From positions 1 through 64,000 of the forward strand of contig NZ_CP072648.1 in assembly GCF_018304825.1 (NCBI RefSeq): 64,000 nt of DNA. The letters are read 5' to 3'. Source of the stretch: Chloracidobacterium validum (lineage in GTDB: Bacteria > Acidobacteriota > Blastocatellia > Chloracidobacteriales > Chloracidobacteriaceae). Position numbers and translations under genes: made by a program. The notes below the pieces were generated by a model. It made no database searches and was not told where the DNA came from. It saw only the letters and a program-made list of their open reading frames with translations. Shown piece by piece: positions 1 through 8,631 of this stretch. Within the stretch, counting starts at the first letter, position 1. Each line of letters begins with the position of its first letter.

Positions 1-1392
1 ATGATGGATGACGATAAGTGGATCTCTTTCCTGGGGGAAATCGAAAAACGCATCAACCACGAGAGCTTTAGCACGTGGTTCAAGCCTGCCACACTGCAGG
101 CTTGCCAAGGCGATACTATCTATCTCTGCGTTCCGAATCGAAGCTATGAAGACTGGATTACCGAAACTTACCACGATGTTGTCGAAGAAGCACTGAAAGC
201 TGTTGGATGTGGTCACGCGCGCTTAGCGTTTGTTTACGCCGAGTCAAATGATACTAGGACATCAAATGGGCTGGTGGAAGGCGACACACTCAAAGCTCAC
301 GACACGACGACGTATGGGGCGCTTGACCCTGACTTACCAGATGGCCTAGCTGGGGCGCGCATCGTTGACCTCGAACCCCTCGAACTGCCCCTCAACCCCA
401 AGTACACCTTCGAGACTTTCGTTGTTGGCTCCTGCAATCAATTTGCCCGCGCAGCGGCGATGGCGGTGGCCGACACGCCGACTCGCACATACAACCCGTT
501 GTTCATCTATGGTGGCGTCGGACTCGGGAAAACTCACTTGATGCATGCGATTGGCCAATCAATCCGCAGCCGGGACCGACACATGCGGTTGGTTTACATC
601 TCATCGGAAAAGTTCATGAACGAACTCATCAATGCCATTCGCTACGACAAGGCCCAGGCCTTCCGTGAGAAATACCGCAGCATCGACGTACTCCTGATTG
701 ACGACATTCAGTTCATTGCCGGCAAGGAGCGCACGCAGGAAGAGTTCTTCCACACGTTCAACGCGCTCTACGACGCTCAAAAGCAGATCGTTATCTCAAG
801 TGACTGCCCACCGCGTGAAATTCCAACCCTGGAGGAGCGACTTCACTCACGCTTCGAGTGGGGACTCATTGCTGACCTCCAGCCACCTGACCTTGAGACC
901 AAGGTCGCCATTTTGAAGCGGAAGGCCGATATTGAAAAAATAGACCTGAGCGACAATGTTGCGCTCTTTATTGCTGGGAAAATCAAGTCAAACATTCGTG
1001 AATTGGAAGGCTCCCTCATCCGGCTGGTGGCCTGTGCGTCGTTCCAGCGCCGCCCGATTGATATTGAGCTTTGCAAAGAAGTCCTCAATATCGAGGAAGA
1101 AGAACGCCCCATCACCATCGAGATGATTCAGCGAGTGGTCAGTGATCACTATGGACTACGGGTGGCTGACCTCAAGTCAAAGAACAACTCGCGCAATATC
1201 GCCGTCCCCCGCCAAGTTGCGATGTATCTCTGCAAGCAACTCACCAATCATAGCTTGCCTGAGATTGGACGGCACTTTGGCAACAAACACCATACGACCG
1301 TCTTGCATAGCTGCGAAAAAATCTCACGCCTTTACCAGAAGCAGAGCGATTTCCACAGGCTCATCAACAATCTAATTAGTTCATTTAAATAG
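1..1392 (+). CDS. dnaA: Chromosomal replication initiator protein DnaA
   Basis: Initiates chromosome replication by binding DnaA boxes and melting the origin in its ATP form. The 463-residue length is normal. Domain I covers about residues 1-80, followed by a variable linker to about 130. The AAA+ core has Walker A GGVGLGKT at 171-178 and Walker B LLIDDIQF at 231-238. The C-terminal DNA-binding domain carries the DnaA signature at about 426-441 ([16 protein letters not shown]), the helix-turn-helix that reads DnaA boxes. The gene opens with two consecutive ATG codons at position 1. Its upstream region lies outside the window, so promoter and exact start cannot be judged. It is followed directly by a box-rich non-coding region that is the likely oriC. 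Confidence 0.98.
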
Positions 1393-1402
1393 ATTTACAC
1401 AA

Positions 1403-1426
1403 GTTTTCCACAGATCTGTGGAAAAC
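1403..1426. repeat. Perfect 24-bp palindrome made of two inverted DnaA boxes
   Basis: Two TTTTCCACA boxes face each other (1404-1412 plus strand, 1417-1425 minus strand) across the four-base centre GATC, and with the flanking G and C form a perfect 24-bp inverted repeat. It begins 11 bases after the dnaA stop codon. It could load a DnaA dimer, or act as a hairpin at the end of the dnaA transcript; there is no T-tract to support termination. Confidence 0.8.
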
Positions 1427-1574
1427 TCCCTGTGGATGACCTGTGGAACCTGTGGAACCGTTTACCTCGCTGTCCCTTTTTTCCACAGGTTCCACAGATG
1501 AGGGCTTTTTTTCCACAGGTTCTTCCACAGCCTAATTAGATGATAAAAGCTTAGCCATCAATGGTTTATATTTT

Positions 1575-1610
1575 TTTTCCACATTTCCACAGGCCCTACT
1601 ACTACTACTA
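1575..1610 (+). promoter_or_regulatory. Origin unwinding element: two DnaA boxes, GC spacer, five DnaA-trios
   Basis: Boxes TTTTCCACA (1575-1583) and ATTTCCACA (1583-1591) share one base. They are followed by GGCC and then five CTA trinucleotides at 1596-1610. Read on the opposite strand 3' to 5' these are GAT repeats, the DnaA-trio consensus on which a DnaA filament assembles in Bacillus subtilis. The order box, GC-rich spacer, trios matches that model. Five identical GAT-type trios is an unusually regular example. Confidence 0.8.
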
Positions 1611-1677
1611 GGAACCATGACTAAAGGTATTCATGAGTTGTAGTAAAACATAGCCGCGCGAGTTTCCCGTATGAGCC

Positions 1678-3339
1678 TTAGGCATGCTGAGCAGCTCTAG
1701 AAGCTGGCTCGACCTCGACTCGCGGTAGGATGCCAGGGAACGCGCTAGTCCAGATTGGTAAAACTTGCTGGGCGCACCAAAGCTCCAGGTCTATATCCGC
1801 CTGTGCGGCTGGGACAGGAATCATCCGCAGGTCGGTTCCTTGCAACTCAATTTTGATGTCCTGAACCTTGCCCGCATGGCGTCGGTCCAAGGCATCGGCA
1901 AGTCTGAGAATCGGAATGAGCTTGGTGATGGTTTCCTGGTGGGTGGGTGCCAAACGCATGAAGTCGTCGTGCTTTCGTTTTGGGAGGGAGCCACGGTGAT
2001 AACGAGCCAAGTTCGCCAGGATGGCAATCTCGTGCCCGTGGAAACCAGGCATCTCAGCGTGACGGATGAGATACATGGCGTGTTTGTGGTGGCTTGTGTG
2101 GGCAATGTGGTAACCAATGTCGTGAAGGAGCGCGGCGTAACCCAGCCATTCCCGTTCTAGCTCACCAAGCCCATGAAGCGCGGTGGTTTGATCAAAGATA
2201 CGTTCAGCGAGCCGGGCTGTGTGGTGGGCGTGGGCGGGTTCATAGGCGTAGCGGTGGGCCACGGCAAGAACACTGCGCTGGCGGATATCCTTGGCGCTCA
2301 CTGGCGCGTCGCCCAAGTCCCAACCTTGCTCGCGCAGGTAGTTAATCACAACGCCTTCCCGTAATGACCATTCGCACGTCGTAAGCTGGGTAAAGTTGAG
2401 TTCTTGAAAGATGGTTTCGAGCAGAATGCCGCCGGCGATGATGATGTCCGCACGGCGACTATCAATGCCTGGCAGCTTCCGGCGTTCCTTGTGCGATAGC
2501 CGCTGTAAGCGGCGGTTGAGCGTCTGAAGCGCGGCGTAGGTGAGTTCTGAGGTGAAAGCATCGAAAGGTGGGTAGAATCTCCGTGCGGTGGTGACTTTTT
2601 TGGCTATGGGGTACGACGCATCAAATTTCGCGGCTGCAAGCGCCAGAATGGTTCCTGACGTGCCAACGACTCGTTGGAAGCCGCCGGCTTCCTGGATTTC
2701 CCGCACTGTGCGCGTTAGCCCACTTCGGATGTGCGTTGTGAGGGCGGTGACATCGGCACGGGTGGGTGGGTCCTGGCGACTCAAAAACTGCTCGTGAAGA
2801 CGAACCGCGCCGAGTTTGACGGAGGCCAGATAGTGCGGCGCTTGTCCGGTTGTCAGAATAAATTCTGTGCTTCCCCCACCAATGTCCACGATAAGCGCGC
2901 GCTCACCTTGAAAATCTGTGACTTCAGCCACAGCCAGCGCAATGAGCCGCGCTTCTTCGATGCCCGAAAGAATCTCGACACGGAGACCAACGTCCTGCTC
3001 CACGCGCTGGAGAAAAACTTCCCGATTCCAGGCTTCGCGTATCGCGCTCGTCGCAACCGTGAGTATGGCGGTGACGCCATGCGCCTGCGCCAGATCGGTG
3101 AATCGGCGCAAGGTCGCTACTGCCGCTTTGATTTTTTCGTCTGTGAGGTGGTGCGTTTCAGTCAACCCTGCCGCTAGTCGAACGGTGTCTTTTTCGCGCT
3201 CGATAACACGCAGTCGCTCACCTGTCCGCGCTTCAGCGACAATGAGGTGAATTGAGTTAGAGCCAATGTCTATCGCGGCGACGCGGTGAATCGCTGGACC
3301 CGGCCTGGGTGAATGACTTTGACGGGCAGCCGCAGACAA
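1678..3339 (-). CDS. ppx: Ppx/GppA family exopolyphosphatase with C-terminal HD domain
   Basis: Predicted to hydrolyse inorganic polyphosphate and/or pppGpp. The N-terminal half is the two-lobed Ppx/GppA fold of the ASKHA superfamily: the phosphate-binding loop DIGSNS follows residue 23, and a second loop VDIGGGSTEF lies near residue 145. The C-terminal part carries an HD-type region with LLHDIGYHI and downstream histidines, as in the long (about 500-residue) Ppx subfamily. The open frame begins at a TTG codon at 3339. No ATG lies before the first phosphate-binding loop, so a non-ATG start is likely, though the ribosome-binding site is weak. Transcribed toward oriC and convergent with dnaA. 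Polyphosphatase and guanosine pentaphosphatase activities cannot be separated from sequence. Confidence 0.9.
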   Translation of the reverse strand: MSAAARQSHSPRPGPAIHRVAAIDIGSNSIHLIVAEARTGERLRVIEREKDTVRLAAGLTETHHLTDEKIKAAVATLRRFTDLAQAHGVTAILTVATSAIREAWNREVFLQRVEQDVGLRVEILSGIEEARLIALAVAEVTDFQGERALIVDIGGGSTEFILTTGQAPHYLASVKLGAVRLHEQFLSRQDPPTRADVTALTTHIRSGLTRTVREIQEAGGFQRVVGTSGTILALAAAKFDASYPIAKKVTTARRFYPPFDAFTSELTYAALQTLNRRLQRLSHKERRKLPGIDSRRADIIIAGGILLETIFQELNFTQLTTCEWSLREGVVINYLREQGWDLGDAPVSAKDIRQRSVLAVAHRYAYEPAHAHHTARLAERIFDQTTALHGLGELEREWLGYAALLHDIGYHIAHTSHHKHAMYLIRHAEMPGFHGHEIAILANLARYHRGSLPKRKHDDFMRLAPTHQETITKLIPILRLADALDRRHAGKVQDIKIELQGTDLRMIPVPAAQADIDLELWCAQQVLPIWTSAFPGILPRVEVEPASRAAQHA

Positions 3340-3573
3340 CGCTGAATTCCAAAAACACTAGATAAGGATAACTGTTGCTTCGGGAACGACGAAACCAAGC
3401 TACGACAAACGAGTGTGGCGAGGCTAGCAAAAAAAAAGCCGTGACTCAAGCAACTGACGCCGCCCAAAGACGGTGCGAAAGTGGGGCGATTCATCCTACT
3501 GACGCCGAACCAATCCGCTTGAACACCCAAGCCGTTTGGCAACCACTTTCGCCTTATGGAGGAATGCTAACCC
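3340..3573. other. Divergent intergenic region, ppx / carbonic anhydrase
   Basis: 234 bases between divergent genes. It must contain both promoters, but I see no convincing -35/-10 pair. A ribosome-binding site (GGAGGA, 3558-3563) precedes the carbonic anhydrase start by ten bases. An A9 run lies near 3429. The short open frames here look like chance. Confidence 0.5.
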
Positions 3574-4359
3574 ATGTTTTCCCACCATTACCATTTTGGA
3601 CAACGACTGGCCAGCGTTTTTTTTGCGCCAGCGCTGGCGCTGGCCTTCGTACAACCGGTCGCCGTTGCCCAGTCCCCAAAGCCGGCGCGTCCATCGCCGA
3701 TGAAGCCCGCTGGCAACCAACCCGCAGTAAGCGTGCCTGAGCAAGCCACTGAGGAAAAAACCTGGACCAACGAAGAGCTTCAAGCCGATCCTGACATGGC
3801 ACTCAAGGTTTTGATGGAAGGCAATGGCCGCTTTGCTGCGGGCAAAACTATCCACCCGCGCCAGGATATTGCGCGCATCCGTGAGACGGCCAAAGGGCAA
3901 AAGCCATTTGCCATTATTGTGGGCTGCTCTGATTCACGAGTTCCCAACGAGATCGTTTTTGACCAGGGCCTGGGTGACTTGTTTATTGTCCGAACGGCCG
4001 GTCAAGTCTCAACCTACTCTTCCTGGGGAAGCATCGAGTTTGCAGAGGAGGTCCTTGGGGCAAAGCTCATTTTCGTGCTGGGACACACCAAGTGCGGTGC
4101 CGTGCAGGCAGCCGTTCAGGTTCCCGAAGTCCCTGGGCACATCGTGACGCTCATCAATGACATCAAGCCAGCCGCCCAAAGGGTCAAGGGGCAGCCTGGG
4201 GATGAGGTTCAAAATGCCATTCGTGAAAATGTCCGCATGCAAGTCGAAAAGCTCAAAGGGCTTGAGCCGGTGCTGGCCAAGCGGGTTCGGGAAGGCAAGC
4301 TCAAGGTCGTCGGTGGCGTTTACGACATTGAGACCGGTCTTGTCACGCTCGTTGAATAG
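3574..4359 (+). CDS. Exported beta-class carbonic anhydrase
   Basis: Interconverts CO2 and bicarbonate with a zinc ion. Zinc-site residues are visible: Cys118 in GCSDSR, with Asp120 and Arg122 forming the usual Asp-Arg pair, then His171 and Cys174 in GHTKCG. Residues 1-33 look like a Sec signal peptide (basic start, hydrophobic Ala/Leu/Val stretch, VAVAQS cleavage region), and a Pro/Lys/Ala-rich linker runs to about residue 60, so the enzyme is predicted to be periplasmic. GGAGGA sits ten bases before the ATG. It is followed 84 bases later by sbtA and then sbtB on the same strand. The likely role is to supply bicarbonate to SbtA or to trap leaking CO2. Confidence 0.94.
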   Translation: MFSHHYHFGQRLASVFFAPALALAFVQPVAVAQSPKPARPSPMKPAGNQPAVSVPEQATEEKTWTNEELQADPDMALKVLMEGNGRFAAGKTIHPRQDIARIRETAKGQKPFAIIVGCSDSRVPNEIVFDQGLGDLFIVRTAGQVSTYSSWGSIEFAEEVLGAKLIFVLGHTKCGAVQAAVQVPEVPGHIVTLINDIKPAAQRVKGQPGDEVQNAIRENVRMQVEKLKGLEPVLAKRVREGKLKVVGGVYDIETGLVTLVE

Positions 4360-4443
4360 TTAGTCCAGTGGGTTGGCACGGCTGAAGACGATGCCAACCT
4401 TACCTCCACTCTTTACCTAGAAAACCAAGCATAGAGGAGTCAC

Positions 4444-5529
4444 ATGAACGCTACACAAGCCATGTTTCTGAGCTTGTTATCACCAATGGTGTTGGCTTTC
4501 ATCCTTGGTGTCATTGCCACCCGTGTCAAAAGCGATCTGAAGTTCCCAGAGGAGTTATACACGGCACTGACAATCTACTTACTTGTCGCCATCGGGTTGA
4601 AAGGTGGTTACAAGCTCTCCATCAGCAACCTGGATGATTTTTGGCGGCCAGGGCTAGCTGCGATTGCGCTAGGCGTTGTGATACCAATCGTGGCTTACCA
4701 CATCCTACGCCAGTTTGGAAAATTCGACATTTGGAATGCGGCTGCGATTGCCGCCCACTATGGTTCGGTTTCAGCCGTGACCTTTGGTGAAGCCATCGCT
4801 TTCCACGATACGCTCAAAGAAGAAGCGCTTCGGATGGCCATCGAAGCTGGTACGGTTGCGGCTGGAACTGCCGCGGATGCCCCGGCGGCGCTGGGACTCT
4901 ACAAGGCTCAGGGGTTGAACTACGAAGGCTTCCTGCCCTCACTTCTGACCATCATGGAGGTTCCGGCCATCTTGGTCGCGATCATTATCGCCCGCTTGCA
5001 AGGGAAGGACGCGGCGCTGGCTTCGGATGACAACGCCACGATGGGCGACGTCCTGCGCGAGTTGCTGGCCGGAAAGAGTACCTTACTGCTCGTTGGCTTT
5101 CTGGTGATTGGTTACGCATCAGGCAAGCGTGGTTGGGATCAGGTCGCTCCGTGGTTTGATGCCCCATTTCGTGGGATACTGACCCTGTTTTTGCTTGAAG
5201 CCGGGCTGGTAACAGGACGCCGGTTAGGTGATTTGAAAAAGGTCGGAATGTTTTTGGTAGGGTTCGGCATCCTGATGCCGATTGCAAGCGCCCTGGCCGG
5301 TATCCTGACGGGCAAAGCGGCTGGGTTGACCATGGCTGGGGCGACAGTTCTAGGGGTTTTGGCTGCTAGCGCCTCTTACATTGCCGCACCTGCTGCCTGC
5401 CGAGTGGCACTGCCGAAAGCGAGTCCGACGTATTACCTGACCGCCTCGCTGGCGATTACGTTTCCGTTCAACATCATCATTGGGCTACCGCTCTATCACT
5501 TCCTTGCCGTCAAAATTTATGGACTCTAG
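4444..5529 (+). CDS. sbtA: Sodium-dependent bicarbonate transporter SbtA
   Basis: Integral membrane protein of 361 residues with about ten hydrophobic segments in two similar halves, the architecture of the SbtA family (formerly DUF897). Family features include the conserved SAVTFGEAIAF segment in the first half and a matching Ala/Gly-rich helix with ASASYIAAPAACRVALPKA in the second. In cyanobacteria SbtA is a high-affinity Na+/bicarbonate symporter of the CO2-concentrating mechanism. A strong ribosome-binding site (GAGGAGT) precedes the ATG. The next gene, 21 bases on, encodes an SbtB-like PII protein, which supports the assignment. Bicarbonate as substrate is inferred from family and context. 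Confidence 0.95.
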   Translation: MNATQAMFLSLLSPMVLAFILGVIATRVKSDLKFPEELYTALTIYLLVAIGLKGGYKLSISNLDDFWRPGLAAIALGVVIPIVAYHILRQFGKFDIWNAAAIAAHYGSVSAVTFGEAIAFHDTLKEEALRMAIEAGTVAAGTAADAPAALGLYKAQGLNYEGFLPSLLTIMEVPAILVAIIIARLQGKDAALASDDNATMGDVLRELLAGKSTLLLVGFLVIGYASGKRGWDQVAPWFDAPFRGILTLFLLEAGLVTGRRLGDLKKVGMFLVGFGILMPIASALAGILTGKAAGLTMAGATVLGVLAASASYIAAPAACRVALPKASPTYYLTASLAITFPFNIIIGLPLYHFLAVKIYGL

Positions 5530-5550
5530 GTCCTCAGGAGGAGCATCACG

Positions 5551-5853
5551 ATGCAGAAGTCTGAGATGAAACTCGTGGTCATTATTGCTGAAGATGAGCT
5601 TGAGCCACGGCTGACAAAAGAAATTCTCAACTTGGGCGCGCGGGGGTATAGCGCCAGCCGAGTTCGTGGTGAGGGGTGGCATGGCGCGCGGAAGAGTGAG
5701 TGGGAAGGTGAGAACGTTCGGATTGAAACCATCGTCTCTGATCCCGTGGCCGACGCCATCCTGGCGCGGGTCGCCGAACGCTACATGCCTCACTTCGCCG
5801 TGGTGGTCTATGTGCAAAGCGTGAACATTCTGCGGGTGGAAAAGTTTACCTAG
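5551..5853 (+). CDS. sbtB: SbtB-like PII-family regulator of SbtA
   Basis: A 100-residue protein with the beta-alpha-beta PII ferredoxin-like fold: first strand KLVVIIAEDEL, the segment LGARGYSASRVRGEGWHG leading into the T-loop, and the second half RIETIVSDPVADAILARVAERYMPHFAVVVYVQSV. SbtB proteins bind adenine nucleotides and plug SbtA to stop bicarbonate uptake. The GARGY and RVRGEG segments align with cyanobacterial SbtB. The C-terminal cysteine motif (CGPEGC type) that redox-tunes some cyanobacterial SbtB proteins is absent; this one ends VEKFT. A strong ribosome-binding site (CAGGAGGAG) lies just after the sbtA stop, so translation is probably coupled to sbtA. Confidence 0.9.
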   Translation: MQKSEMKLVVIIAEDELEPRLTKEILNLGARGYSASRVRGEGWHGARKSEWEGENVRIETIVSDPVADAILARVAERYMPHFAVVVYVQSVNILRVEKFT

Positions 5854-5907: not shown

Positions 5908-5936
5908 TTGACTTGCTTTCCAACCGAAACTAGAAT
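5908..5936 (+). promoter_or_regulatory. Sigma70-type promoter for the NYN protein gene
   Basis: TTGACT at 5908-5913, a 17-base spacer, then TAGAAT at 5931-5936. Both hexamers match the sigma70 consensus at five of six positions with ideal spacing. Predicted transcription start is near 5943, giving a leader of about 60 bases before the ATG at 6005. Confidence 0.65.
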
Positions 5937-6004: not shown

Positions 6005-6967
6005 ATGGCGTCCAATGATCCCCGGAGTAGTTCCTCCGGGTCGCACATGATTCATGCGCCCTCAAATCGAGGTCGCATTGCCATCTTCATTGACGGCAAC
6101 AACCTATTCCACGCCGCCCGCTCGGCCGGCGTCGAAATAGACTATGCCAAATTACTGACACACCTCCGGGGTGAGGATCCGCTTCTGAGGGCTTTTTTCT
6201 ACACTGGTGTTGACCAGCAGGCCGAACGCCAGCAAGGCTTTTTGCTTTGGATGCGCCGGAATGGGTACCGGGTCGTGCAGAAAGAACTCAAGACCTTCCC
6301 CGACGGAACGAAGAAAGCTAACCTGGATGTTGAAATTGCTGTGGATATGCTGTCGCTGGCTGACAAGTACGACACGGCTATCCTCGTCAGTGGCGACGAA
6401 GATTTTACCTATGCCTTGAATGTCATTGCCTACAAGGGCGTAAGGGTTGAAGTCGCGGGTTTTCGGGCGAATACCTCACCACGGTTGATTGACGTTGCCG
6501 ACCGCTTTCACGAGCTGGACGGCATCGTTGCCGATATTAGCAAGTCACCAAGCAAGCGCGACTCACAACAAACGGAAGCCCTGCGCCTCAGCGGAGAATG
6601 GTCGCTTACCCCAGACTTGCCCAGGGCTGAAACCGGACCTGAGCCCGGCAAGGAAGACGGTGGCTCGCACGATGGACAGGAACTGGACGCTCCGCTTGTC
6701 GAGCAACCAGACCAACCTTGTCCAGCGGTTGACGCGCCGGAGTTGCTGGCTAGTCTGCCTCAGTCACCAGCGGGCGACCCGGTGCCGAAACCTGAGTCAC
6801 CCCTGATCACCGATGACAACGTCATTGTGGCCACGCTGCAATCAGGCGAGCATCCCATGATTCCAGATGAGACTTGGGAAGCTTCCGAGCTGGTAGAACA
6901 AGAAAGCGCGCCCGGTGGCAACGTGAGTCCTGACATAGGCGACCTACCCCCGTCGGAGCATCCCTAA
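6005..6967 (+). CDS. NYN domain protein (LabA/DUF88 family)
   Basis: Residues 23-180 form a NYN domain, a PIN-like nuclease fold. The acidic residues expected for metal binding are present: Asp30 in IFIDGNN, Asp108 in ANLDVEIAVDM, and Asp131/Asp133 in VSGDEDF. Relatives act on RNA or in regulation (LabA in cyanobacteria); no substrate can be named here. The C-terminal 140 residues are Pro/Glu/Asp-rich, low in complexity and probably disordered, with no detectable domain. A second ATG at 6047 (MIHAPS) lies closer to the domain, but ATG 6005 has the better purine-rich upstream. It appears to be a single-gene unit with its own promoter. Confidence 0.88.
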   Translation: MASNDPRSSSSGSHMIHAPSNRGRIAIFIDGNNLFHAARSAGVEIDYAKLLTHLRGEDPLLRAFFYTGVDQQAERQQGFLLWMRRNGYRVVQKELKTFPDGTKKANLDVEIAVDMLSLADKYDTAILVSGDEDFTYALNVIAYKGVRVEVAGFRANTSPRLIDVADRFHELDGIVADISKSPSKRDSQQTEALRLSGEWSLTPDLPRAETGPEPGKEDGGSHDGQELDAPLVEQPDQPCPAVDAPELLASLPQSPAGDPVPKPESPLITDDNVIVATLQSGEHPMIPDETWEASELVEQESAPGGNVSPDIGDLPPSEHP

Positions 6968-7014: not shown

Positions 7015-8631
7015 TCAGTCTGGCAGTTGGGTTCCTGTAAGCACGAACGGGCCGAGGTGCGGACCGGGCTGGTTGAGGCAGGTTTCGAGCGCCAGTTTGA
7101 GCATTGGGCGAACATCTTCCGGCGCAAGAACTGCGTCACAGAAACCACGCGCGGCGGCAAACTTTGCATCGAGCTGGGCCTCATAGGTGGCCCGCACCTT
7201 GTCCATTTCGGATTGAAGGGCTGCATCGGGCGATTGTCCCGCTGCCTTGAGCTTTTCTAGTTGCGCTGAAAAAAGCGCCATGACGGCCGACTCACCTTCC
7301 ATGACACCCATGCGTCCGGTGGGGAGCGAGAAAATAAAGTTTGGATCAAAACCCTGGCCAGCCATGGCGTAGTAGCCTGCGCCAGATGCGTGGTTGACTG
7401 TCAGCACCAGTTTCGGCACGGTAGCCGTTGCCATCGCCTCCACGAAGTGCGCACCGGCGCGAATGATCCCTGACTGCTCGGCCTCCACGCCGACCATAAA
7501 GCCCGATACGTCCTGCACAAACAGTAGTGGTCGGCGGTGGCGGTTGCACGTCTCGATGAAGTAAGCCGCTTTTTCGGCGCTTTCCCGGTAAACGATACCG
7601 CCAAAGCGCGGCGGCGCGGCGCCGGATGATTTGATGAGTCCGCGTCGGTTGGCAAGCAATCCGACTGGAATGCCTTCGATTCGCGCCTGAGCGCAAATCA
7701 TCTCGCGGGCATGGTCGGGCTGAAACTCGTCAAAGGAATCAGCGTCGAGCAAGGTGTCAAGGAAGGCTTCGGCTTCGTAAGGTAAACGATGGTCAACCGG
7801 CAGAAGCTGATAGGCTTCGCGTGGGTCGCGCTGAGGTGGACGGGCTTCGCCAACAGCAACCACGCGCGGCGGGGGGGGTGGGAGTTCAGCCACCAGCCGC
7901 CGCAGCCGCGCCAGGCAGGCCCGATCATCCGGCTCACGATAATGGGCAACCCCTGAAACTTCGGTGTGCATCCGCGCTCCGCCCAAAGCCTCTGGATCGG
8001 AGCTTTGCCCGGTTGCTCCGCGCACAAGGTTGACGCCGCCCAGTCCCATAAAGCTCGTTCCCTCGACCATCACGATGACATCTGACAACGCCGGAAGATA
8101 AGCGCCACCGGCAATGCATTGACCCATGACCGCTGCCAGTTGGGGAATGCGCAAATGTCGTCGCATGAGCGAGTTGTAATAAAACAACCGCGCCGCGCCG
8201 TACTGTCCTGGAAAGACGCCACCCTGATAGGGCAAGTTTACCCCGGCAGAGTCCACGAGATAGACAATCGGCGTCCGGCAGCGCATGGCGATTTCCTGCG
8301 CCCGTAGCATTTTCGTGATGGTTTCAGGAAACCAGGCTCCGGCCTTGACGGTTGGATCATTGGCCACGACGACGATTTCCCGTCCATGGCAGCGGCCGAT
8401 GCCGGTGACGACGCCGGCCGCCGGCGCTTGTCCATCGTACTGGTCGTAGGCGACGAGCAAACCGATTTCAAGGAACGGAGAATCGGGATCGAGCAAAGCG
8501 GCCACCCGCTCACGCGCTGTCAATCTGCCTTGCGCATGCAGGCGTTCGATTTTGGCTTCGCCGCCACCCAGCCGCAGCCGCGCCTCGAGTTCCCAAAGTT
8601 CCGCCGTCAGGGCTTCAAGCGTTTGAGACAT
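7015..8631 (-). CDS. Acyl-CoA carboxylase carboxyltransferase (beta) subunit
   Basis: 538 residues of the biotin-dependent carboxyltransferase fold (PF01039), with N- and C-terminal crotonase-like halves. Visible family segments are the N-terminal RLTARERVAALLDPDSPFLEIG, the acyl-CoA site VDSAGVNLPYQGGVFPGQYGAAR, the oxyanion glycines in QCIAGGAYLPALSD, and the C-terminal FVQDVSGFMVG and HASGAGYYAM. The DSAGVNLPYQ form resembles methylcrotonyl-CoA and related acyl-CoA carboxylases more than propionyl-CoA carboxylase. It transfers CO2 from carboxybiotin to an acyl-CoA. The biotin carboxylase/carrier subunit is not in this window, so the substrate remains open. Confidence 0.9.
   Translation of the reverse strand: MSQTLEALTAELWELEARLRLGGGEAKIERLHAQGRLTARERVAALLDPDSPFLEIGLLVAYDQYDGQAPAAGVVTGIGRCHGREIVVVANDPTVKAGAWFPETITKMLRAQEIAMRCRTPIVYLVDSAGVNLPYQGGVFPGQYGAARLFYYNSLMRRHLRIPQLAAVMGQCIAGGAYLPALSDVIVMVEGTSFMGLGGVNLVRGATGQSSDPEALGGARMHTEVSGVAHYREPDDRACLARLRRLVAELPPPPPRVVAVGEARPPQRDPREAYQLLPVDHRLPYEAEAFLDTLLDADSFDEFQPDHAREMICAQARIEGIPVGLLANRRGLIKSSGAAPPRFGGIVYRESAEKAAYFIETCNRHRRPLLFVQDVSGFMVGVEAEQSGIIRAGAHFVEAMATATVPKLVLTVNHASGAGYYAMAGQGFDPNFIFSLPTGRMGVMEGESAVMALFSAQLEKLKAAGQSPDAALQSEMDKVRATYEAQLDAKFAAARGFCDAVLAPEDVRPMLKLALETCLNQPGPHLGPFVLTGTQLPD

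Follow-up and report, generated by a model that had tools for sequence, protein, structure and literature searches.

In cyanobacteria, bicarbonate (HCO3-) is taken up by SbtA, a Na+-dependent symporter that is encoded together with the PII-like regulator SbtB, as in the pair Slr1512-Slr1513. Uptake has been proven for six cyanobacterial SbtA proteins (PMC4275256), members of the family that are active on HCO3- have also been studied in autotrophic Proteobacteria according to a review, and SbtA-family genes and other genes of the dissolved inorganic carbon toolkit are widespread in autotrophs and heterotrophs, including groups outside cyanobacteria (PMC10880623). In Schleiferia thermophila from Yellowstone, a member of the Bacteroidota with proteorhodopsin, a carbonic anhydrase (CA) and a putative Na+-dependent bicarbonate transporter were proposed to feed anaplerosis, and the same idea is cited there for Polaribacter MED152 (PMC4148732). 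Here, we describe an ordered gene trio of Chloracidobacterium validum that encodes a β-CA, a transporter of the SbtA family and a PII protein resembling SbtB, located in a window of 64,000 nucleotides that corresponds to bases 1-64000 of contig 1 (2,659,040 bases) in a genome of 3,659,143 bases and 2 contigs.

C. validum is a chlorophyll-based photoheterotroph. Its genome contains a type-I reaction-centre gene of the PsaA_PsaB family (30.1 bits, cut-off 23.3), and the species is reported to show no photoautotrophic growth on bicarbonate and to lack carbon fixation genes (PMC12816986). On balance we favour, with moderate confidence, the view that the trio is an operon for the capture of inorganic carbon, which would combine periplasmic CO2 hydration, Na+-HCO3- uptake and PII-type control and would supply carboxylases.

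The CA, sbtA and sbtB genes

The three genes are located on the + strand at positions 3574-5853 and are separated by gaps of 84 and 21 bases. Each start is preceded by a purine-rich ribosome-binding site, as read from the sequence: GGAGG at 3558-3562, GAGGAG at 4434-4439 and AGGAGG at 5536-5541. Coordinates, family matches and these sites bear out the adjacent genes with strong ribosome-binding sites described in the initial annotation; that observation was confirmed, and the interpretation given to it was partly supported. The features are as follows.

3574-4359, + strand: β-CA with an N-terminal export leader; 261 amino acids, Pro_CA E 1.5e-39, motifs CSDSR and GHTKCG
3574-3669, + strand: predicted signal peptide of the CA, residues 1-32, AVA/QS; from sequence, hydrophobicity and like leaders in relatives
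4368-4403, + strand: RNA hairpin between the CA gene and sbtA; from folding of the window and relatives
4444-5529, + strand: SbtA-family (Sbt_1) Na+-coupled anion transporter, presumed HCO3- importer; 361 amino acids, Sbt_1 E 1.2e-108, AlphaFold2 model
4807-4932, + strand: stretch holding the extended region between transmembrane helices 4 and 5 (TM4-TM5) of SbtA, residues 122-163; about 32 residues above the usual length, predicted outer face
5551-5853, + strand: SbtB-like PII protein without the C-terminal CGPxGC loop; 100 amino acids, P-II E 4.2e-20, PDB matches, alignment
7015-8631, - strand: acyl-CoA carboxylase carboxyltransferase of the propionyl-/methylcrotonyl-CoA type; possible HCO3- consumer, outside the operon

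The Pro_CA domain of the CA contains the C-x-D-x-R and H-x-x-C residues of β-CAs, and its best PDB relatives were 1ym3 and 2a5v (129 bits). By inspection, the N-terminus resembles a signal peptide, as the initial annotation had proposed, with an Arg, a hydrophobic core (best 12-residue Kyte-Doolittle mean 2.5) and AVA/QS after residue 32. Leaders of the same type were seen in the CAs of six Chloracidobacteriaceae relatives, and an export leader was recognized in the window CA and in the 12 trio relatives that were inspected, out of 15 (all but L181, L182 and L187). Judging from this leader, the CA is probably exported to the periplasm.

The transporter scored 363.6 bits against a curated Sbt_1 cut-off of 27, which places it in the superfamily, and the only PDB sequence that it matched was SbtA (93 bits). 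An AlphaFold2 model built from a 40-sequence alignment had a mean pLDDT (predicted local distance difference test) of 89.5 and adopts the SbtA fold: it was aligned over 321 residues to the solved SbtA 8zor with a Z score of 42.8 and a root-mean-square deviation of 2.0, followed by another solved SbtA with Z 39.5, whereas the next family reached only Z 23.2. The sequence identity to cyanobacterial SbtA proteins was 25% to 28%. The Na+ positions aligned to Slr1512 are Y106, G107, S108, A307 and S309, where the cyanobacterial structure shows contacts made by the main chain. Taking the CA partner together with the serines that are retained in the substrate site, we infer that the substrate would be HCO3-, presumably imported and coupled to Na+.

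We noted that the TM4-TM5 stretch of the window SbtA is unusually long. It comprises 53 residues, as compared to 21 in 68 of the 82 SbtA sequences (rows) measured, an excess of about 32; in the remaining rows it was 40 to 53 residues (12 rows), 32 (one) and 27 (one). The longest version of 53 residues was seen in the genus (6 rows), followed by 48 in G008 and 40 in five Chlorobiota-like rows, and the longer loop shared by these 12 rows suggests common SbtA ancestry. The stretch was 21 residues long in four Bacteroidota trios and in the second SbtA of Thermochlorobacteriaceae. The insert was modelled as a longer TM4b plus an extra helix at residues 143-156, with a pLDDT of 80 to 92 for the block. 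With the N-terminus taken to be outside, lysine and arginine residues numbered 12 in the five inner loops (±4 residues) and 5 in the six outer stretches; residues 122-163, partly counted as helix, contain 3 lysine and arginine and 6 aspartate and glutamate residues. This distribution places the insert outside, matching the inverted-repeat topology. The extra loop, confidently modelled and predicted to lie on the outer face of the transporter, appears to be new within the literature searched. In 2 Chlorobiota relatives, a second sbtA copy without the long loop was located after sbtB (L039 7705-8982, L042 1330-2307).

The third protein belongs to the PII family, its gene starts 21 bases downstream of sbtA, and a solved SbtB was among its PDB matches. 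The closest solved relative was TTHA0516 from Thermus (2cz4, 100 bits), with cyanobacterial SbtB at 34 bits. A CGPxGC redox loop occurs in some SbtB proteins; it is absent from the C-terminus of the window protein, which ends in ILRVEKFT, and among 19 aligned rows the motif was found only in L128, L138 and L139. Furthermore, the T-loop is shorter than in Slr1513-like rows, and one T-loop arginine is retained, which we take to have a role in nucleotide binding. By family and position, the protein is a candidate plug or regulator of SbtA.

The gap between the CA gene and sbtA (4360-4443) contains the GC-rich hairpin, and five other trio-bearing genomes of the genus have a stem of different sequence at the corresponding position. 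Folding z values were -1.33 in the window and -3.36, -3.90, -0.04 and -2.55 in the relatives, for which four sequences were folded since L027 is identical to L024 in this region. A function as terminator was rejected: the stem is not followed by a U run, and the single terminator-like site in the scan lies elsewhere, below the shuffle mean. The hairpin possibly has a role in mRNA processing or dosage control.

Some features of the surroundings were also recorded. The NYN-domain gene (6005-6967) was found 3' of sbtB in six trio-bearing genomes of the genus and in G008; it is preceded in the window by a promoter-like site at 5908-5936, although the number of such sites was not above that in shuffled sequences. 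The trio begins about 2.2 kb past dnaA in the window (1-5853), and its distance from the start of contig 1 is the same in G001 and G005. It is probably located close to the replication origin.

Distribution and ancestry of the trio

An ordered CA-SbtA-SbtB trio was identified in 16 genomes among the loci examined. These include the window genome, five of the six other genomes of the genus (G001, G003, G004, G005, G006) and G008 of the same family. Beyond the family, trios were found in the Chlorobiota G062 (L039) and G075 (L040), in the Bacteroidota loci L041, L043, L048 and L049, and in G207, G215 and G219. The wider genome scan contributed trios at 8 of 80 loci (L037-L041, L043, L048, L049), from which the duplicate rows L037 (= L026) and L038 (= L025) were dropped. 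Two further loci were left outside the count: L042, where the contig starts inside the first sbtA and the CA side is not visible, and L050, which contains a CA fragment of 29 bits. In a phylum sample, 52 of 198 genomes contained Sbt_1, and the neighbours were viewed in 34 of these 52, revealing the trio in 4 (G062, G207, G215, G219).

Within a sample of 58 genomes from the class, including that of C. validum and several that are less than 90% complete, Sbt_1 was present in 13 and a reaction-centre gene in 8. The trio tracks the type-I reaction centre in this sample: it was found in 7 of the 8 positive genomes and in none of the other 50, the exception being G002, which is 85% complete. The seven trios come from one genus and one sister genus, and thus represent few independent events. 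A reaction-centre gene was also detected in 3 of 15 further genomes, all Chlorobiota; in both sets of genomes these matches were weak, with 28.6 to 31.9 bits against a cut-off of 23.3. Apart from members of the genus itself, two of these three Chlorobiota had the nearest SbtA proteins in the named scan, with 68% and 67% identity.

The Chloracidobacteriaceae formed one group, with G008 branching first, in the trees of all three families (support 99/99 for CA, 98/98 for SbtA and 96/97 for SbtB), which fits inheritance of the trio as one unit within the family. The SbtA proteins of the trio genomes and their close kin formed a clade of 24 rows with 100/100 support, far from the Sbt_1 proteins of other members of the class, which implies transfer across phyla. 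Simple vertical descent of SbtA from the ancestor of the class was rejected, as the Sbt_1 genes of the class-mates G019, G031, G045, G051, G053 and G056 were placed far away in the tree. In the 7 to 10.5 kb analysed around Sbt_1 in these six genomes, no adjoining CA was found in a search that covered β-CA but not alpha- or gamma-CA, as did all searches beside sbtA; in L030 a CA is located 2.8 kb away. A weak SbtB-like frame was seen beside the class-mate Sbt_1 gene in L030 and L031.

The initial annotation had asked whether the trio was acquired together. Within the Chloracidobacteriaceae, the trees would fit a trio that was kept as a unit. Grouping the Chloracidobacteriaceae with the five Chlorobiota-like trios in a single clade had weak support for SbtA (62/90), was not rejected for CA (p 0.144; this tree had very long outgroup branches and produced warnings of its own), and was rejected for SbtB (p 0.0021). 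Since SbtB rejects the simplest joint grouping, a joint transfer of the three genes from one donor is not shown.

Some other Sbt_1 loci deserve mention. In the cyanobacterial loci L067, L093 and L099, a non-classical SbtA-like gene is followed 0.3 to 0.5 kb downstream by an exported-looking CA frame, with twin-arginine leaders in L067 and L093. In L097 (5965-7470), an Sbt_1 gene lies beside a weak CA match (19 to 32 bits) on a contig labelled Bifidobacterium breve, a metagenome-bin label that seems doubtful. Finally, the Sbt_1 protein of L186 (G151, from the phylum sample around Thermochlorobacteriaceae) fell with the Slr1512-like cyanobacterial rows and has SbtB beside it; this gene has possibly been transferred.

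Proposed bicarbonate supply and competing explanations

A search of the whole C. validum genome gave 0 matches to Rubisco (PF00016) and 0 matches to the bacterial microcompartment shell family (PF00936), in a comparison where 5 and 2 of 14 control genomes, respectively, were positive. The lack of Rubisco and carboxysome shell genes noted initially therefore holds for the genome as a whole, and it argues that the trio is not a CO2-concentrating mechanism. At C1:1.40 Mb, the genome encodes another β-CA, which has no export leader. CA activity in the cytosol would undo a CO2-concentrating mechanism, and this enzyme, which is presumably cytosolic, makes a supply role fit better than a concentrating role.

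Potential consumers of HCO3- are present. The genome encodes phosphoenolpyruvate (PEP) carboxylase, and biotin carboxylases of the propionyl-/methylcrotonyl-CoA type use HCO3-. The biotin carboxyltransferase that had been pointed out 1.2 kb from the trio is a real gene, but it was rejected as an operon member: it is encoded on the opposite strand, and the NYN-domain gene intervenes. This neighbour is kept in 4 of the 5 other trio-bearing genomes of the genus, and was not found in L025 or L029.

Support for an anaplerotic use of bicarbonate comes from a close relative. C. thermophilum was reported not to grow without bicarbonate. Its authors described this need as unexpected and explained it by carboxylating enzymes, namely 2-oxoglutarate:ferredoxin oxidoreductase, PEP carboxylase or other enzymes of anaplerosis; the species also has genes for degrading branched-chain amino acids (PMC4376005). 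Growth stimulation by bicarbonate is reported in 2 other papers (PMC8245765, PMC12816986), and a similar need is said to have been hypothesised for Ca. Thermochlorobacter aerophilum (PMC5459899). The anaplerotic use suggested in the initial annotation is plausible in the light of these reports (PMC4376005, PMC12816986), and the trio is a likely candidate for the cause of the published bicarbonate dependence.

If the trio captures inorganic carbon, the exported CA would hold periplasmic CO2 and HCO3- near equilibrium and would convert CO2 from amino-acid oxidation or from the mat into HCO3-. The SbtA-family carrier would then import HCO3- with Na+ by an elevator mechanism, and SbtB would bind adenine nucleotides and block the carrier from its cytosolic side at times when no uptake is needed. 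Inside the cell, HCO3- may be used by biotin carboxylases and PEP carboxylase; in the form of CO2 it may also reach 2-oxoglutarate:ferredoxin oxidoreductase, an enzyme that C. thermophilum is reported to have. It would not serve Rubisco.

Several observations weigh against this scheme. Of the four HCO3- contacts in Slr1512 (S114, Y140, S324 and S327), which were docked and mutagenised (PMC8352866), only two are retained in the window SbtA, as S110 and S311, whereas Y140 is replaced by L168 and S327 by A314. In a quick tree of 82 rows, the rows L128, L138 and L139, judged by eye to be Slr1512-like from the letters of Slr1512 (itself outside the tree), were split together with L186 from the window branch by a length of 5.82. 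With 25% to 28% identity, a very long branch and half of the contacts, the protein does not group with the Slr1512-like proteins, and the SbtA label cannot be taken to imply a cyanobacterial transporter. Wet-lab results on SbtA-like proteins outside cyanobacteria are negative or neutral in the sources available: a protein from Labrenzia was inactive when uptake was assayed in E. coli (PMC4275256), and the Sbt-like SO_3758 of Shewanella improves formate tolerance, for which efflux was judged more consistent with the authors' models (PMC12093963). These results slightly lowered our confidence in the capture scheme. Furthermore, the 2026 species paper states that bicarbonate is stimulating but not essential for C. 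thermophilum (PMC12816986), and the second CA would let imported HCO3- leak as CO2. Finally, the trio-bearing Bacteroidota G063, G064, G077 and G079 gave no match to a reaction centre or to rhodopsin, the rhodopsin search being one in which 0 of 14 control genomes yet 4 of 18 searched genomes were positive. These four genomes also led us to reject phototrophy as a condition for the trio.

The altered site and the inactive Labrenzia protein also speak for a carrier of another small anion, such as formate, or for an exporter, with the CA serving CO2/HCO3- balance or pH and SbtB sensing the energy state. The formate-linked SO_3758 has a proposed pocket of V99, S100, S270 and I272 that would match V109, S110, S311 and I313 in the window protein (the S270-S324 match is stated in PMC12093963, and that of V99-S100 is assumed). 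However, a CA partner in 16 genomes points to CO2/HCO3- as substrate, and the crossover serines that match S114 and S324 are retained, with S311 invariant and S110 present in at least 90% of the 40 aligned SbtA sequences, and we regard this explanation as rather unlikely. Less likely still is a role in pH or CO2 homeostasis, whereby the exported CA would speed the loss of respiratory CO2 or buffer the periplasm and HCO3- import would correct the cytosolic pH. CO2 diffusion alone could supply the carboxylases given the CA without an export leader, and C. validum grows at pH 5.5 to 9.0 (PMC12816986), but growth of the sister species is reported to need bicarbonate or to be stimulated by it, which argues for supply.

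SbtA and SbtB are parts of the CO2-concentrating mechanism in cyanobacteria (PMC8352866), so the trio could be viewed as a remnant of such a mechanism from an autotrophic ancestor. This idea was rejected on the lack of Rubisco and shell genes; in addition, the window SbtA lies off the Slr1512-like branch and the trio is intact and conserved in the genus as described above, which makes a remnant very improbable. Returning to the capture operon, a far-reaching extension, doubtful in our own estimate, is that a CO2-recapture module travelled between chlorophyll photoheterotrophs with type-I reaction centres, namely Chloracidobacterium and, in another phylum, Chlorobiota resembling Thermochlorobacter. 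In such a module, the added outer loop of SbtA might hold the exported CA, so that leaked CO2 would be hydrated and handed to the carrier. In hot alkaline mats, the module would be what enables a heterotrophy that is driven by light and involves large anaplerotic carboxylation.

Comparison with known systems

Among the matches listed in the open-licence literature, no title or beginning of an abstract tied sbtA or CA to Chloracidobacterium, and a term search of the main texts of PMC4376005, PMC8245765 and PMC12816986 found neither "carbonic anhydrase" nor "sbtA". Both "Chloracidobacterium" and "carbonic anhydrase" occur in three papers. As far as these searches show, three points are new: the connection with Chloracidobacterium, the outer loop, and a CA-SbtA-SbtB gene order that is fixed across phyla. 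Already known are the coupling of CA and a bicarbonate transporter for anaplerosis (PMC4148732) and the spread of SbtA beyond cyanobacteria (PMC10880623). The route by which inorganic carbon enters C. thermophilum was left open in the available text of PMC4376005, and the trio supplies defined genes that can be tested for this role. An SbtA branch from outside cyanobacteria, with a CA in the operon, would also help to learn the cargo of the many SbtA-like proteins found there.

The locus resembles Slr1512-Slr1513 in Pfam families, fold, the sbtA-sbtB order and the crossover serines. It differs in its separate deep branch, the changes of Y140 to L and S327 to A, the roughly 32 extra outer-loop residues, the SbtB without the CGPxGC loop, the exported CA in the operon and the host without Rubisco. 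Calothrix NIES-4105 (L067) and Hydrococcus (L093) also have a transporter of the non-classical Sbt_1 branch near an exported-looking β-CA, but there the CA is downstream and has a twin-arginine leader, and the hosts are autotrophic. Thermus TTHA0516 (2cz4), from another phylum, matches the window SbtB without gaps. Shewanella SO_3758 retains the crossover serines matching S322 and S324 of SbtA, but it is linked to formate tolerance, and "carbonic anhydrase" does not occur in the main text of PMC12093963. With the Bacteroidota that use proteorhodopsin, the window organism would share a common photoheterotroph logic, in which light energy is combined with anaplerotic carboxylation fed by a CA and an SbtA-type carrier. 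Light is used through a type-I reaction centre in C. validum, but through rhodopsin in Schleiferia and Polaribacter.

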